A DNA stretch of 64,000 nt from a bacterium (GTDB taxonomy: Bacteria > Myxococcota_A > UBA9160 > UBA4427), in NCBI GenBank assembly GCA_024742285.1, contig JANSYR010000001.1:124001-188000 (forward strand). The letters are read 5' to 3'. The position numbers and the translations under genes are program-made. A model generated the notes under the pieces. The model was not told the origin of the DNA, did no database searches, and saw nothing but the letters and a program-made list of their open reading frames with translations. This document shows positions 23,409-29,628 of this stretch, piece by piece (within the stretch, counting starts at the first letter, position 1; each line of letters begins with the position of its first letter).

Positions 23409-24086
23409 ATGGGAGTCGAGTACGCCATGCGTGCCAGCGAGAACGAAATCGAAACCACCGTCCCGACGCAGCTGGAAGACAGCCCGGCGCGCTTCGAGGA
23501 CCCCGACGCGGAGCTCGTCCGACGCTGCCAGGCGGGAGGCCCGGACGCCGCTCTGGCCTTCTCGCTCCTCGTCGAGCGCCACGCGGGCCGGATCAAGGGC
23601 CGCGCCACCCGCATCCTCGGGGACGAGAGCGAAGCCGAGGACGTCGTCCAGGAAGTGTTCGTGAACGTCCACCGCTTCCTCCATCGCTACCGCCCCGACC
23701 GGCCCTTCTCCCATTGGCTCTCCGTCGTGACCCTGAACGCCTGCCGCATCGAGCTCCGCCGACGCGCCGGCCGCGATCGCCGCCACGAGGCCTACCGGCT
23801 CGATCCGGGCCGCGACAGCGAAACGCACATCGACGGCGATCCGCTCCTTCGCGACTGGCTCGATTCCGCCCTCGACGAGCTCCATCCCCTCACGCGGCAG
23901 GCGATCCTGCTGCGGGCCCTCGACGGCCTCGGCTACCGCGCGATCGCGGAGCGCCTCGGCCTCTCCGAGCCCGCCACGAAGATGCGCGTCCTGCGCGGAC
24001 TCAAGGATCTGCGCGCGCGCTACGACGCGGCGGACGGCGACGGAAAGAAGCGCGCGGCCCGACGGCGGAGCCCCGTCGCCGCCTGA
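23409..24086 (+). CDS. ECF-type RNA polymerase sigma factor without adjacent anti-sigma
   Basis: A 225-aa sigma-70-family protein. Region 2 is SEAEDVVQEVFVNVHRFLHRY, cited as 'AEDVVQEVFVNVHRFL'. Region 4 is LHPLTRQAILLRALDGLGYRAIAERLGL, cited as 'GYRAIAERLGLSEPATKMRV', a clear helix-turn-helix. It directs RNA polymerase to a specific promoter set. The start could also be ATG 23427 (MRASENEIE), which has GGGAG upstream. No anti-sigma gene follows. It converges on the subtilase of the second ECF operon with a 51-bp gap, so the two sigma systems face each other. The basic C-terminal tail (KKRAARRR) is unusual. Confidence 0.88.
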   Translation: MGVEYAMRASENEIETTVPTQLEDSPARFEDPDAELVRRCQAGGPDAALAFSLLVERHAGRIKGRATRILGDESEAEDVVQEVFVNVHRFLHRYRPDRPFSHWLSVVTLNACRIELRRRAGRDRRHEAYRLDPGRDSETHIDGDPLLRDWLDSALDELHPLTRQAILLRALDGLGYRAIAERLGLSEPATKMRVLRGLKDLRARYDAADGDGKKRAARRRSPVAA

Positions 24087-24137: not shown

Positions 24138-25577
24138 TCAGTCTGCCGCGGGCGCCGTGGACGTTGCGGGGGCCGCAGACGTCGTGGGCGCTGCGGGCGC
24201 CGCAGACGTCGTGGGCGCCGCAGGCGCTGCGGGCGCGGGTGCCTCGCAGGCACGCTCGAGGCGCGCCAGGACCTCGCACACCGGGGGAATCGAGCGACCC
24301 GCCGCGCCGGCGCCCGCCGCACGGAAGAGCTCGCCGCGCGCGAGCTTCGGATCCCCGGTCACGCTCGTGAGCACGGCCAGCGAGCCGGTCACGTGGGCGG
24401 CTGCGAGGCTCGTCCCGTTCCCGAACGCGAAGGCGCTCCCAGGGACCGTCGAGAGGACATCGACGCCGGGCGCCATCAGCTCGACCCAGGGTCCGCGATT
24501 ACTCGCCTCGAAGAGCCGGCCCTCGCGATCCACTGCGCCCACCCCGATCACGGAGGGATAGGCCGCGGGATAGCGGCGATCGCGCGTCCCTTCGTTCCCG
24601 GCGGCGGCCACGACGACGGCCCCGAGCTCCTCGAGGCGGGCGACACCCCGCTCGAGCAGGACGTTCGCCGGCCCCGAGAGCGAGAGGTTCACGATCTGCG
24701 CCTGGGCGTCCCAGGCCTGGTCGAGGCCCTGGAGCAGGTCGTAGATCGTACAGCGCCCGCCCGCGCCGGCCGTCGGACGGCAGACGGGGATCGAGACGAG
24801 CGCCGCCCCCGGAGCGACCCCGGCGATTCCGAAGCCGTTGTCTTCGATCGCGTTGATCACGCCGGCCATCAGCGTGCCGTGGACGCCGACCTCTCGCGCC
24901 GGTCCGCTGGCGAGCGGCACGATCCGGGCGGCGGAGAGGTCGCGGTGCTCGGTTTCCGGTGCGGAGTCGAGGAGCGCGACGGTCACGCCCTCGCCGCTCG
25001 AGATCATGCGTGCCTCGCGCACGCCGGTGACCGCCAGGCCGTATTGCAGGCTGGCGTAGGGGTCGGGCTCGACCTCCGCGGTGTCGGGCGCGTCGAGGGT
25101 CTCGATCTCCGCCGCAGCGCTCGCGTAGACGTCGTTCGGCACGAGGGCGCTGCCGTCGGGCAGGACGGTCACGAGCTGGTCGATCGGCGTTCCGGGCGGG
25201 CCGGCGATCCTCGCCACCGTCGCGCAGACCACCGGGCTCCAGTAGCTGTCGGCGACGCGGGTGTCGGGCGCGAGCTCGAGGTCCTGCGGAAGCTGACCCG
25301 ACGGGTCCTTCGGCAGCGCGAGGATCGCTTCGCTCGGACCGCCCGCCGCGGGCGAAGCACCCGTCGTTCCCGGCGCCGGCAGCGGCACGATCGAGCCGGG
25401 ATCGCCGGCCGTACGGCCCGCGCTGATCCCGGGTTCGGCGAGCTCGCTCACCGCCTGCGCGGCGGCGCCCAGCGCGAACGGACCACAAAGGGAATCGTCC
25501 CCTGCAAACGCGACGAACGGCGTGCCGAAGAGGCACGCCGCTGCGACGAGCGCGAGCTGCAGGGAACGTCGGATCAT
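24138..25577 (-). CDS. secreted S8 subtilisin-like serine protease
   Basis: A 479-aa protein with a signal peptide (MIRRSLQLALVAAACLFG...AFA). The catalytic domain is at about 190-445: Asp204 in TVALLDSAPETEH, His233 in VGVHGTLMAGVI, oxyanion Asn328 in AAAGNEG and Ser390 in GNGTSLAAAHVTG, so it should be active. Residues 27-185 are Pro/Ala-rich and show no I9 or fervidolysin-type prodomain pattern. The tail is an Ala-Pro-Thr-Ser repeat. It is the third gene of an ECF sigma/anti-sigma/protease operon; its ATG overlaps the anti-sigma stop (ATGA). The anti-sigma factor may supply the missing prodomain in trans (inference). Confidence 0.92.
   Translation of the reverse strand: MIRRSLQLALVAAACLFGTPFVAFAGDDSLCGPFALGAAAQAVSELAEPGISAGRTAGDPGSIVPLPAPGTTGASPAAGGPSEAILALPKDPSGQLPQDLELAPDTRVADSYWSPVVCATVARIAGPPGTPIDQLVTVLPDGSALVPNDVYASAAAEIETLDAPDTAEVEPDPYASLQYGLAVTGVREARMISSGEGVTVALLDSAPETEHRDLSAARIVPLASGPAREVGVHGTLMAGVINAIEDNGFGIAGVAPGAALVSIPVCRPTAGAGGRCTIYDLLQGLDQAWDAQAQIVNLSLSGPANVLLERGVARLEELGAVVVAAAGNEGTRDRRYPAAYPSVIGVGAVDREGRLFEASNRGPWVELMAPGVDVLSTVPGSAFAFGNGTSLAAAHVTGSLAVLTSVTGDPKLARGELFRAAGAGAAGRSIPPVCEVLARLERACEAPAPAAPAAPTTSAAPAAPTTSAAPATSTAPAAD
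24172..24218. repeat. 27-bp coding repeat in the protease tail
   Basis: The 20-mer GCCGCAGACGTCGTGGGCGC occurs at 24172-24191 and 24199-24218, a 27-nt period that codes for the 9-residue unit AAPTTSAAP near the C-terminus of the subtilase. Weaker copies flank it. Such Ala/Pro/Thr tails act as flexible linkers or wall-spanning segments, and the number of copies may vary between strains. Confidence 0.8.
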
Positions 25578-26407
25578 GGCGAGGCAGGCTCCGCGAAGAG
25601 GGCGAGCGGCGTCGGCCCCTCCCTGAGTCGGGACGCGATCACCTGGAGGTCCGCCTCGGCTTCGGGCCCTTCGATGCCCGTCGCGCGCAGACGGTACCGA
25701 CCCACGCTGGACGGACCGGACACGATCTCGAGCCCCGCCGCGCGCAGCCCTTCCCCGATCTCCCGGGCGGTCACGCCTTCGACGAAGACCACGTCGAGGA
25801 GCGCGCCGGAAGCGACTTCCGCCGGCGCCGACGCGAGGGTGTAGTCGGCGCTCTGCACGAAGGGGTTCTCGACCACGGCGCCGCCGAGGAGGCCGAGGCC
25901 GAAGATCGCGGCGGCCGCGGCGGCGATCTGAACCGGACGGATGCCCCAGGGGCCGCGGACGACGTCGTCCACCGCGGAATCCGTTCGGATCTCCGCTTCC
26001 CGCTCACGCTCTTCGCTCAGCACCCAGCGGGTCAGCTCGCGGACTTCGTCCTCGGTCAGCGGCGCGGCGGCTTCGATCGGGACGACCTCCGCCTCGGCGG
26101 GCGAGGCGGACGGCGCGGGAAACGGGGGGGCCGTGTCGACTCCATCGGCCTCGCCGGCGTCGATTCGCGCCGTGATCTCGTCGAAGACCCGGTCGGGATC
26201 CGGCAGGGCGACATCGATCTCGAAGGGCGCGCCGGAGATCATGTCGAGCTCGGCGCGACAGTCCGCGCACTCCGCGGCGTGGGCCTCGACGGCGCCCCGC
26301 TGCCGGGCGTCGAGCAGGCGTTCGCCTCGCTCGTCGGTCTCCCCGTACCAGGGAATCCAGCCGAGAACGCTCTGCGGACAGCGAATCGATCGCGCCTCTC
26401 TCGTCAT
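25574..26407 (-). CDS. membrane anti-sigma factor with a subtilase-prodomain-like periplasmic domain
   Basis: A 277-aa protein. It has the zinc-binding anti-sigma motif His43-x3-Cys47-x2-Cys50 (EAHAAECADC) and one membrane helix at about 156-178 (PVQIAAAAAAIFGLGLLGGA). Its periplasmic part at 203-275 has a strand-helix-strand-strand-helix-strand order: LLDVVFVEG, TAREIGEGLRAAG, LEIVSGPSSVGRYRLRAT, ADLQVIASRLREG, LALFAEPAS. That order and the closing 'FAEP' resemble the I9/fervidolysin prodomains that fold and inhibit subtilases. It would hold the ECF factor at the membrane. ATGA overlaps join it to the sigma gene before and the protease gene after. The prodomain call is inference. Confidence 0.85.
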   Translation of the reverse strand: MTREARSIRCPQSVLGWIPWYGETDERGERLLDARQRGAVEAHAAECADCRAELDMISGAPFEIDVALPDPDRVFDEITARIDAGEADGVDTAPPFPAPSASPAEAEVVPIEAAAPLTEDEVRELTRWVLSEEREREAEIRTDSAVDDVVRGPWGIRPVQIAAAAAAIFGLGLLGGAVVENPFVQSADYTLASAPAEVASGALLDVVFVEGVTAREIGEGLRAAGLEIVSGPSSVGRYRLRATGIEGPEAEADLQVIASRLREGPTPLALFAEPASP

Positions 26408-27009
26408 GCCCCCTCCTGATCCATCGCGCCCTCCGGCGCCGAGCCCATCATCCGTCGGAGCGCGCGTCGCGCCCGCGAAACCCGGGTCTTCACGGTCTCC
26501 CGCGTGACCCGCTGCCGCTCCGCCACTTCTTCCAGGGACTGCCCCTCGATCACCGTCCAGAGGAGCGCATCCCGCTGATCGGAAGGGATCCGGTCGAGCA
26601 TCCGCCCGACGCGCCGCAATTCTTCCCGTGCATCCAGCTGAGTCGCCGATGCACGCTCTTCCGGGACCTGCGCGATCACCTCGTCTTCGGTCGCGATCAC
26701 CCGCGAACGCTTCAAGCGGCCGCGTTGGCGCAGGGCCTCGAGGCACTTGAAGCGCGCGATGCCGAAGATCCAGCTCGAGATCTTCGATTCGCCCCGAAAG
26801 GTCGGGGCGCTCGCCCAGACCTCGAGAAAGACGTCGCTGGTGATCTCTCGCGCCAGTTCCTGATCCTCCAACCTACGACGTACAAAGACGAAAACGCGCG
26901 GGTAGTAACGGTCGAAGAGCGACCGGTACGCGTCCCGGTCCCGACGGGCGGCCACGGCCTCGAGCAGCTGCGCGTCCTGGTCGTTCCGGCCCTCCGCCTT
27001 CTGATTCAT
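26404..27009 (-). CDS. ECF-type RNA polymerase sigma factor (protease operon)
   Basis: A 201-aa sigma factor. Region 2: ELAREITSDVFLEVWASAPTF, cited as 'AREITSDVFLEVWASAP', and SWIFGIARFKCLEALRQRGR. Region 4: DQRDALLWTVIEGQSLEEVAERQRVTRETVKTRV, cited as 'SLEEVAERQRVTRETVKTRV'. The product recruits RNA polymerase to its target promoters once released by the anti-sigma factor encoded next (ATGA overlap at 26404-26407). It heads the sigma/anti-sigma/subtilase operon, and autoregulation is likely. I could not identify a convincing ECF -35/-10 pair in the 182 bp upstream (27010-27191). Confidence 0.92.
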   Translation of the reverse strand: MNQKAEGRNDQDAQLLEAVAARRDRDAYRSLFDRYYPRVFVFVRRRLEDQELAREITSDVFLEVWASAPTFRGESKISSWIFGIARFKCLEALRQRGRLKRSRVIATEDEVIAQVPEERASATQLDAREELRRVGRMLDRIPSDQRDALLWTVIEGQSLEEVAERQRVTRETVKTRVSRARRALRRMMGSAPEGAMDQEGA

Positions 27010-27191: not shown

Positions 27192-27659
27192 CTAGCGTGC
27201 GCGGGCGGGGCGGCCACCGGGGACGACCGGTCGCGGTTCGGGCGGCGGCGGGGCGCCGGGCAGGCCGAAGCCGGGCTCGGTCGAGCCGCCGCGCGGTCCC
27301 GGGATCACGGGGCGAGTCCCGGGCGAATCCGCGAGGGCTCGCTGGCAGGCGGAGCCCCCAGCCTCGCAGGCGCCCGGATAGCGAACCGCCGTGGCGGCGC
27401 TCGGCGCCGGGCGTGCCGGCGCCCCGGGCGCCGCAGCGACGTCGTTCGGGCTGAAGAAGCTCTGGAGCGGACCGACCATGTCCATCGGAGAGGCGCTCCC
27501 ACTCCCGGGAGCCGCCGTTCCCGACACCGCTTCCCGCGGCTCCGCGCAGGGGCCGGGCGGGGCCAGACCCGCAGGCAGCTCGGCGGTGGCGCTCGACGCG
27601 ATCCAGAAGATCGAGGCCGCGACGAAGGCGCACTTCCGCGTCAGGAGGGAGGGTCGCAT
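27192..27659 (-). CDS. small secreted proline-rich protein
   Basis: A 155-aa protein with a signal peptide (RKCAFVAASIFWIASSATA) and a mature part very rich in Pro, Gly and Ala (GPRGGSTEPGFGLPGAPPPP), with no recognisable domain. Two Cys pairs are present (GPCAEP; GACEAGGSACQRAL). Function unknown. It is on the same strand and directly upstream of the ECF sigma operon (182 bp), so it could be a surface target or part of the same regulon. The coding call rests on the signal peptide and the reasonable length. Confidence 0.55.
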   Translation of the reverse strand: MRPSLLTRKCAFVAASIFWIASSATAELPAGLAPPGPCAEPREAVSGTAAPGSGSASPMDMVGPLQSFFSPNDVAAAPGAPARPAPSAATAVRYPGACEAGGSACQRALADSPGTRPVIPGPRGGSTEPGFGLPGAPPPPEPRPVVPGGRPARAR

Positions 27660-27722: not shown

Positions 27723-29375
27723 TCAGCCACCGAGGCCGACCCGGACCGAGAGCCCGAAGAGATCCCGGGTGTAGTCGAAGACTTCGGCGCTCGAGCGATT
27801 GCGGGTCCGGCTGTAGCGGGCCGTGACCCGCAGGTGCTCGCCGATCGCCCGCGAGAGGGAGATCCGAACGCCCGTCTCGTGCTCTTCGCGATCGTCGTCG
27901 TCTGGTACGAGCGTGCCCGGATCCGGGAAGACCGTCGGATTGCCATAGGGCACCCAGGCGTAGCGACCGCTCACCCGCAGACCGATCTCGAAGGGCAGCG
28001 TCGCACCGACCCCGACCTCGATCTGGTGGCGTTGATGGTCGTATTCGCTGCCCTCGCTCCAATAGCGCTGGTAACGGTACTCGCCTTCGAGCCACCCGTC
28101 TTCGACGCCGGGAACCCGTAGCGCGAGCGGGGCGTGGTGGAGCGCGCTCGCGCTCACGCCGACCCCGTCGCGGTCGGTCGCCTCCTCCTCGTTCCGGTCG
28201 GGCGGCGGCAGCGCGAGATCGAAGCGCTCGTACTTGTAGTCGTCGACGCCGACGGAGGTCCCCAGGATCGTGTACTGCCCGCCCTTCCACGGCTTGAAGA
28301 TCGAGGCACCGACGACGTGGCTGATCACGAAGGGGTCGAGGTTCTGGTCGCGCGGCGCGTCGATGAACGGCGCGTCGAAGTCGTACTGCAGACGCAGCGA
28401 GGCGTCGGTCTCCGGGATCGCGCGATCGAGCCAGAAGGTGAGTCCGGGGGCGAGCGTGTCGAACTGCTCGAGATCGACGTGCTCGGAGCCGGCGAAGCGG
28501 AGCGTCCCGCCACCGGTCACCTCCTCGAACTCGAGGAAAGAAGCGCCGGCGTCGAGGAACCAGAAACCACGAACGTCGCTCTGGCCGGACACTTCGCTCG
28601 GCAGGCCGACGCCGCGTCCGCGGAGAAGCGCATTGTCATCGACCTCGAGGCCGAGCTCCGCCGTCACCCACCAGGGAACGTCGCCCCCGCTCTCCATCTC
28701 TTCGAGCGCCCGCGCCGCTTCGGTCGCCCACGGCGTTCCGGGATGCTCCTGCACGACCTTCTCGAAGGCCTCGCGCGCACGCACCGGTTCCTCGGCACCC
28801 AGCCGCGCGCGCCCCAGGAAGAACGAGGCCATCGGCTCGACCGGCGCCTCCGACAGCTGCGAGGCCGCGTCGAGCCGACCCACCGATGCCACGTAGTCGG
28901 TCTGTGCGTAGGCCACGAGTCCCGAGTAGAGCAGGAACTCCGCGCGATCCCCGTCGCTCGCCCCCGCCCGCGTCAGGGCCTCCGCCGCGTCGTCGATCCG
29001 ACCCGCGTGGTAGTAGGCCATCCCCAGAAAGAGATCGACCCCAGGGACGAGCGGGTCGAGGTCCCGGGCGTCCTCGAGACTCGCGATCGCACGACGGAAG
29101 TCCTGGAGACGGATCGAGCAGAGCCCGTCGCGAAGCGCGACTTCCGCGTCGTCGGCCGGGTCGCCCTGCACCCGCGCGAGCACCTCGAGGGCCGGCCCGC
29201 ATCGTCCCTCGTCGGCGAGCCGCAGTCCGAGCGAACGCTCCGCCTCGTCTGCGACGGCCGTGAACGCGACGAAACCGATCGTCACGACGACGAGGGTCGC
29301 GAGCCGAACGGCGCCGACGGGGAAGACGGCGACGCATCCGTCAGCGGGTCGCTTCACGGGAGCGGCGGGGAGCAT
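27723..29375 (-). CDS. TPR / outer-membrane beta-barrel protein
   Basis: A 550-aa exported protein. After the signal segment (LATLVVVTIGFVAFTAVA) come TPR-like helices at about 50-245: LRDGLCSIRLQDFRRAIASLE, cited as 'CSIRLQDFRRAIASLEDA', LGMAYYHAGRIDDAAEALTRA and ASFFLGRARLGAEEPVRAREAF in part. Residues 255-550 are alternating amphipathic strands of a predicted beta-barrel (WVTAELGLEVDDNAL, GWLEGEYRYQRYWSEGSEY, GLRVSGRYAWVPYGNP, HLRVTARYSRTRNRSS). The architecture recalls surface-lipoprotein-assembly-modifier proteins, but the match is loose. I chose ATG 29375, just before the signal peptide. Divergent from the kinase gene over 253 bp without other features. Confidence 0.72.
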   Translation of the reverse strand: MLPAAPVKRPADGCVAVFPVGAVRLATLVVVTIGFVAFTAVADEAERSLGLRLADEGRCGPALEVLARVQGDPADDAEVALRDGLCSIRLQDFRRAIASLEDARDLDPLVPGVDLFLGMAYYHAGRIDDAAEALTRAGASDGDRAEFLLYSGLVAYAQTDYVASVGRLDAASQLSEAPVEPMASFFLGRARLGAEEPVRAREAFEKVVQEHPGTPWATEAARALEEMESGGDVPWWVTAELGLEVDDNALLRGRGVGLPSEVSGQSDVRGFWFLDAGASFLEFEEVTGGGTLRFAGSEHVDLEQFDTLAPGLTFWLDRAIPETDASLRLQYDFDAPFIDAPRDQNLDPFVISHVVGASIFKPWKGGQYTILGTSVGVDDYKYERFDLALPPPDRNEEEATDRDGVGVSASALHHAPLALRVPGVEDGWLEGEYRYQRYWSEGSEYDHQRHQIEVGVGATLPFEIGLRVSGRYAWVPYGNPTVFPDPGTLVPDDDDREEHETGVRISLSRAIGEHLRVTARYSRTRNRSSAEVFDYTRDLFGLSVRVGLGG

Positions 29376-29628
29376 CGGGCGCGGCAAGGGCAAACGGGGT
29401 CGGATCCTCGGGTCGGGTGCAGAGTCGTGAGCGATCCCGATCCTGGCCTCGGGTTCGTCGCGCGAAGGTACCCCGGTCGGGACAGCGAGACACATCGATG
29501 CGAAACCGGGAAGGCGACGGAATGCCAAGACTTTCGTGGGCTAAGTTCCGATCCAGGACACCAAGGGCCGGCGCACGCCCCCGCTTCCGCCCGGTCCGCT
29601 CACCGTCGCCAGGAGGGCGCCGCACATC

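Follow-up and report, generated by a model that had tools for sequence, protein, structure and literature searches.

A sigma factor operon in which a subtilase may act as the site-1 protease of an anti-sigma factor bearing a prodomain-like domain

The proteases identified as making the first cut (site 1) in the regulated intramembrane proteolysis (RIP) of anti-sigma factors are, according to a 2020 review, DegS/DegP, signal peptidases and Prc, with no subtilase among those listed (PMC7593790). Subtilase genes do occur in a conserved context with extracytoplasmic function (ECF) sigma factor genes in group ECF54; the description of that group includes CHAT and carboxypeptidase proteins but no anti-sigma factor, and proteolysis of the sigma factor itself is proposed (PMC8999054). 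Here we describe a three-gene operon encoding an ECF sigma factor, a membrane anti-sigma factor (ASF) and a secreted S8 subtilase, located in a stretch of 64,000 nucleotides of contig JANSYR010000001.1 (assembly GCA_024742285.1; the whole stretch is hereafter called the window). The source genome has 6.5 Mb, and its named relatives are metagenome-assembled genomes of Myxococcota or 'Deltaproteobacteria'. Our analysis points to an S8 enzyme that may be the dedicated site-1 protease of the adjoining ASF, the periplasmic part of which would imitate the protease zymogen: it carries a prodomain-like domain and, in the juxtamembrane linker, an apparent copy of the processing site of the protease, a signal that the initial annotation of this DNA had missed.

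The three genes lie on the reverse strand, to which all window coordinates refer unless a plus sign is given. The sigma factor gene (26404-27009; 201 residues) encodes a protein with regions 2 and 4 only, as defines an ECF sigma factor (Pfam Sigma70_r2, 5.1e-14; r4_2, 3.3e-12). The ASF gene (25574-26407; 277 residues) overlaps the sigma gene at 26404-26407 and the protease gene (24138-25577; 479 residues) at 25574-25577, both overlaps being read in the DNA as ATGA. The protease matches PF00082 (8.3e-35), with a catalytic domain at residues 172-442 (24252-25064) delimited by Pfam and structure alignment, and its triad of Asp204, His233 and Ser390 is invariant in 14 orthologues together with the oxyanion asparagine N328, which identifies it as an S8 subtilase. 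In the ASF, residues 32-51 (26255-26314) form a segment of the zinc-binding anti-sigma (ZAS) type with His43, Cys47 and Cys50 (PF13490 at 31-51). The zf-HC2 match is weak in the window protein (E 0.003) and was found in 17 of 18 relatives, and the three ligands are nearly invariant among relatives, giving the HxxxCxxC signature of class I ZAS proteins. A single transmembrane helix is predicted at residues 156-178 (25874-25942) from a hydrophobic stretch that aligns in all relatives. The initial annotation had read the trio with its two overlaps, the three zinc ligands and the intact triad from the letters alone, and all of these are borne out. As judged from the gene overlap and the conserved order, the ASF would bind and inhibit its cognate sigma factor.

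The same annotation had seen no prodomain in residues 27-185 of the protease and had proposed that the ASF carries it instead. By eye the prodomain of the protease does look absent, because no Pfam family, PF05922 and PF22148 included, is called at the N-terminus of any of the 14 orthologues. Residues 82-155 are nevertheless well conserved and are modelled with a predicted local distance difference test score (pLDDT) above 90. From residue 80 onwards the protease model aligns along pro-Tk-subtilisin and pro-subtilisin E with Z of ~34 over 327-336 residues, as against Z of ~28 over ~250 residues for mature subtilisins. On this structural evidence, which weighs more than the sequence profiles, the protease carries its own prodomain in the canonical place, modelled at residues 80-155 (25113-25340), downstream of a signal peptide predicted from the sequence at residues 1-26 (AFA|GD; 25500-25577; helix 3-17 in the model). 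Both of those proposals therefore fall: the ASF does not carry the prodomain of the protease, and two prodomain-like domains exist. A prodomain in this part of the protease was one of the outcomes that the initial annotation had itself named as speaking against its idea.

The model of the protease also contains strands at residues 150-153 (V-Y-A-S) and 300-302. By alignment of conserved residues, the second strand would be the counterpart of the substrate-binding strand of subtilisin, and the first would fit a prodomain tail lying in the active site. Compared position by position with the tail of subtilisin BPN', the self-processing site is predicted at Y151-A-S-A154|A155, within a tail that spans residues 151-156 (YASA|AA; 25110-25127), agrees with the modelled strands and has an invariant Y151. 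As separate observations on this protein, cysteines 31, 118, 266, 276, 434 and 444 are invariant in the 14 orthologues, one of them inside the prodomain, which suggests disulphide bonds, perhaps linking prodomain and mature enzyme. The C-terminus (24138-24245, about residues 445-479) is an Ala/Pro/Thr-rich tail that most orthologues lack, and could consist of repeats or of a wall or linker segment.

Regarding the ASF, residues 202-277 (25577-25804) form a C-terminal domain that, by profile and predicted fold, is like the I9/fervidolysin-type prodomains of S8 proteases. PF22148, the fervidolysin N-terminal prodomain family, is the dominant match among ASF relatives: it was found in 11 of 18 full-length relatives (best 2.1e-5), in 15 of 24 relatives when the C-terminal domain was searched in isolation (best E 1.9e-6) and in 19 of 35 proteins of a wider set. 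The AlphaFold model of the domain shows a beta-alpha-beta-beta-alpha-beta order with a mean pLDDT of 92, in agreement with the order and the I9/fervidolysin pattern recognised in the initial annotation. In structural alignments, prodomains of PC1/3 rank first (Z 7.8, 2.4 Å over 70 residues, and Z 7.1), and subtilisin propeptides follow at Z of ~6 amid other ferredoxin-like folds. Foldseek alone was not decisive (best E 0.03). A profile of the ASF domain also retrieves the genuine prodomain of an ordinary subtilase (L124), matches in long reverse frames (L120 and L121) having been set aside as artefacts. Searches of the window's own genome gave no I9 (PF05922) match and no PF22148 match above the cut-off, and a PDB sequence search with the ASF or the protease profile returned nothing useful. 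The Myxococcota ASFs stop 2-5 residues past an AE motif, and the P4-P1 tail that would enter an active site is absent; the domain is thus prodomain-like, and not a member of the family with full inhibitor anatomy. A recent duplication of the protease prodomain into the ASF is not supported, since hhalign found no similarity between the two domains (probability 0.5%).

Between the membrane helix and this domain, the ASF linker is variable apart from a short motif containing Y189 and A192, both nearly invariant. The motif (residues 189-194, YTLA|SA; 25826-25843) is our candidate site-1 cleavage site, based on profile and covariation tests. It lies ~10 residues outside the membrane and, in most pairs, roughly 3-13 residues ahead of the prodomain-like domain. 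Typical sequences are V-Y-[RT]-T-A|A in the protease tail and [VIAS]-Y-[RT]-T-A|[AS] in the ASF. When a leave-one-out profile of the protease tail was run over whole ASF sequences, its best match was the Y189 site in 22 of 24 Myxococcota proteins; among ~330 control blocks taken from other parts of the protease, for which the median was 5 of 24, the tail profile came first in both coincidence and score.

Tail and linker also vary together. We compared own with permuted pairing in 40 non-redundant sigma-ASF-S8 pairs from Myxococcota and Gammaproteobacteria, and each protease tail resembles its cognate ASF linker more closely than permuted ones (z 6.0 overall; z 3.5, p 0.0005 when permuted within lineages only). 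The signal holds for Gammaproteobacteria alone (z 4.1) and for Myxococcota alone (z 2.7, p 0.006), persists when the aromatic P4 residue (Tyr) is left out (z 4.45), and falls short of significance in the eight gammaproteobacterial pairs of the fervidolysin-prodomain type taken alone (p 0.06). Among 69 offsets the covariation peaks at P4, and when the comparison is slid along the ASF the maximum lies in the linker (z 6.0), with lower values on both sides. A peak at one place is not accounted for by relatedness alone, because the other offsets share the same phylogeny. The correspondence can be read directly in individual pairs, given here as protease tail and ASF linker: FATL|T and YTTL|T (L214), FKVL|A and YRTL|A (L223), YRPM|G and YQPL|G (L212), FRPA|G and YQPA|G (L221), YRLQ|G and MRLA|G (L213), LELL|A and LEML|G (L113), and YEPG|S and YRPA|S (L127).

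The linkage of the three genes is itself conserved, as the initial annotation had asked to be checked. Across the 80 genomes searched in the order to which the source genome belongs, sigma, ASF and S8 genes follow one another in nearly all loci on contigs of sufficient length; a second branch, found in one genus (L110-L113, L161), has no zinc ligands. The arrangement is also present in one Burkholderiaceae genome (L077) and in many Gammaproteobacteria, where the ASF domain was found in 24 of 369 genomes. An S8 gene stands next to ~47 of 60 ASFs that have the domain and enough flanking sequence. As an observation apart, a second ASF orthogroup in one Myxococcota genus (L114, L115, L116, L160, L162) combines the same prodomain-like domain with a linker motif resembling YGT[AV]G, and no S8 gene lies in the flank that was fetched. 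In one further locus (L045, 411-1436), sigma region 2, lacking region 4, is fused in frame to the ASF, which may be a genuine fusion or else the product of a deletion or of faulty assembly.

Several points weigh against the ASF being a dedicated substrate of the protease. Roughly 13 ASFs that carry the domain lack an adjacent S8 gene, and some of them keep a YxT-like motif (L114, L128, L209); in addition, no close homologue of the window's protease is found in the genomes G038, G307 and G056. The window's own ASF domain, searched alone, has no Pfam match, and Z values of 6-8 for a ferredoxin-like fold are also reached by unrelated proteins. The window's own pair also illustrates the match poorly (YASA|A and YTLA|S), the evidence lying at the level of the family. 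As for the covariation, the P4 anchors of divergent proteases were placed by hand, and phylogeny inflates the permutation p-values, which are therefore optimistic; the offset controls share that phylogeny and do not remove its effect. Finally, when the best 6-mer was sought anywhere in each pair, without guidance, it fell on tail and linker in only 3 of 40 cases, chance matches being dominant.

The observations made here, namely the gene order, the prodomain-like fold in both proteins, the intact triad, the shared motif and the covariation, allow us to propose a model for this circuit. The protease would be exported with its own prodomain, would cut itself at Y151-A-S-A154|A and would then become mature. 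The prodomain-like domain of the ASF would dock on the mature enzyme at the site vacated by that prodomain, and the enzyme would cut the juxtamembrane linker at Y189-T-L-A192|S. Loss of the periplasmic domain would open the ASF to an M50 site-2 protease and so free the sigma factor, a plausible signal being an increase of mature protease in the periplasm. In this regard, strand 1 of a ferredoxin-like fold starts next to the point where strand 4 ends, so that a linker leading into strand 1 begins near the place where a prodomain tail would exit. The domains of the Myxococcota clade end short of the residues expected to occupy the active site, which would leave the cleft open to the linker. We infer the docking, the cleavage, the order of events and the sign of the regulation, in which cleavage would activate the sigma factor rather than tune it. 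M50 proteases are encoded in the source genome (3.9e-57); such enzymes are near-universal, so their presence is weak evidence for RIP. The earlier suggestion that protease and ASF bind each other stands in part: the covariation of tail and linker suggests an interaction, and the motif points to cleavage rather than to simple mutual binding. Based on sequence comparison and models, we assign a probability of roughly 0.6 to the reading in which the adjoining ASF has the S8 enzyme as its dedicated site-1 protease and imitates the zymogen of that protease with its periplasmic part.

A different role for the same parts would be that of an uncleaved inhibitor or tether, the domain and linker of the ASF holding the mature protease so that occupancy, and not cleavage, alters the release of the sigma factor; such a role comes near to what the initial annotation had proposed. 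It is well established that I9/fervidolysin-type domains inhibit subtilases in trans, and this role would account for the prodomain-like fold of the ASF domain as well as for a linker that matches the P4-P1' tail filling the active site in zymogens. We nevertheless consider it unlikely: the copied motif covers the scissile bond, P1' included, as in a substrate, and the Myxococcota domain, ending 2-5 residues past its AE motif, falls short of the P4-P1 tail of BPN' and so offers no product-like inhibitory tail.

Somewhat more doubtful is the view that the ASF domain is only a sensor of a generic type, ferredoxin-like or SPOR-like, the protease an ordinary target of the regulon and the motif a matter of shared composition, Ala-rich with an aromatic residue at the membrane. 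SPOR matches in 5 of 24 members (best E 0.0019), the several unrelated ferredoxin-like folds at Z 6 and the ASFs without a neighbouring S8 gene would all be expected of such a sensor; PF22148, however, matches three times that number of members at much lower E-values. The covariation survives without the aromatic residue, and little or none of it is seen at other offsets or in other segments of the ASF. The motif could also be a site for a signal peptidase, the enzyme responsible for the site-1 cleavage of RsiV (PMC7593790), with an accidental likeness to the protease tail. Such a reading would fit the window's ASF, in which small residues (A-S-A) lie close to the membrane, but it seems very improbable, given that motifs of related systems such as YTTL|T, YQPL|G, YQPA|G and LEML|G are not A-x-A sites and yet track the cognate protease.

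The initial annotation had covered the trio of genes, and the conserved neighbourhood extends further upstream. In the window, a gene for a tetratricopeptide repeat (TPR) protein with a beta-barrel-like C-terminus (27723-29528; TPR_16, 1e-12) and then one for a small secreted Pro/Gly-rich protein of 155 residues (27192-27659) lie directly upstream of the sigma gene. Barrel families match the former at E 0.12-0.15 only (Pfam), and its homologues stand upstream of ~19 related operons, or ~20 Myxococcota loci counting the window. The Pro/Gly-rich gene is a probable operon member with relatives in the same place in five loci, and no Pfam family was found for its product. In Gammaproteobacteria, other genes of envelope type, judged by eye, adjoin the trio. 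The circuit probably serves an envelope or surface function. As for a shared ECF promoter, no convincing bipartite motif was found in the GC-rich DNA upstream of the sigma gene. On the other side of the trio, a second ECF sigma gene (23409-24086, plus) is convergent with the protease gene, and a weakly similar sigma gene has the same place and orientation in L037 (3047-3883, plus) and L055 (3007-4089, plus). In the gammaproteobacterial branch, two genes of ~650-670 and 380-420 residues precede the trio in all three loci inspected (L208, L213, L219).

A site-1 protease has been identified for a minority of ECF/anti-sigma pairs. If the proposed reading is true, then for a whole set of ECF circuits in two phyla the site-1 protease could be named, the docking module pointed out and the scissile bond predicted from the operon sequence itself, with a cut expected after A192 in the ASF of the window and after the equivalent residue in others. 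Such a signalling protein would have been built by copying parts of a protease zymogen, and the circuit would be a bacterial counterpart of the eukaryotic cascade in which a subtilase and an M50 enzyme process SREBP. Whether it represents a widespread signalling class across Myxococcota and Gammaproteobacteria, in which a subtilase serves as dedicated site-1 protease, the ASF is a membrane-tethered zymogen mimic and the processing motif coevolves, is in our view an evenly balanced question. A literature search returned no prodomain-like domain on an anti-sigma factor and no cognate subtilase acting as site-1 protease, although a mention in the main ECF classification work is possible.

With regard to the known cases of RIP, the system shares with RseA/DegS/RseP and RsiV/SipS/RasP a single-pass membrane ASF holding an ECF sigma factor, and the window's genome likewise has a gene for a periplasmic protease together with an M50 protease. 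It differs in that an S8 subtilase encoded alongside the ASF in one operon is the proposed site-1 protease, and in that the ASF itself bears a prodomain-like module proposed for docking. That module has the fold and profile of I9 and fervidolysin-type (PF22148) prodomains and of stand-alone I9-like inhibitors such as POIA1; here, however, it is fused behind a membrane anchor to a zinc-binding ASF, the Myxococcota copies end before the active-site tail, and the tail-like motif precedes the domain rather than following it. In eukaryotes, the subtilase known as site-1 protease (MBTPS1) makes the first cut in membrane-tethered SREBP and ATF6 ahead of an M50 enzyme. The system described here resembles that cascade by analogy only, and we claim no homology of substrate or docking module between the two.

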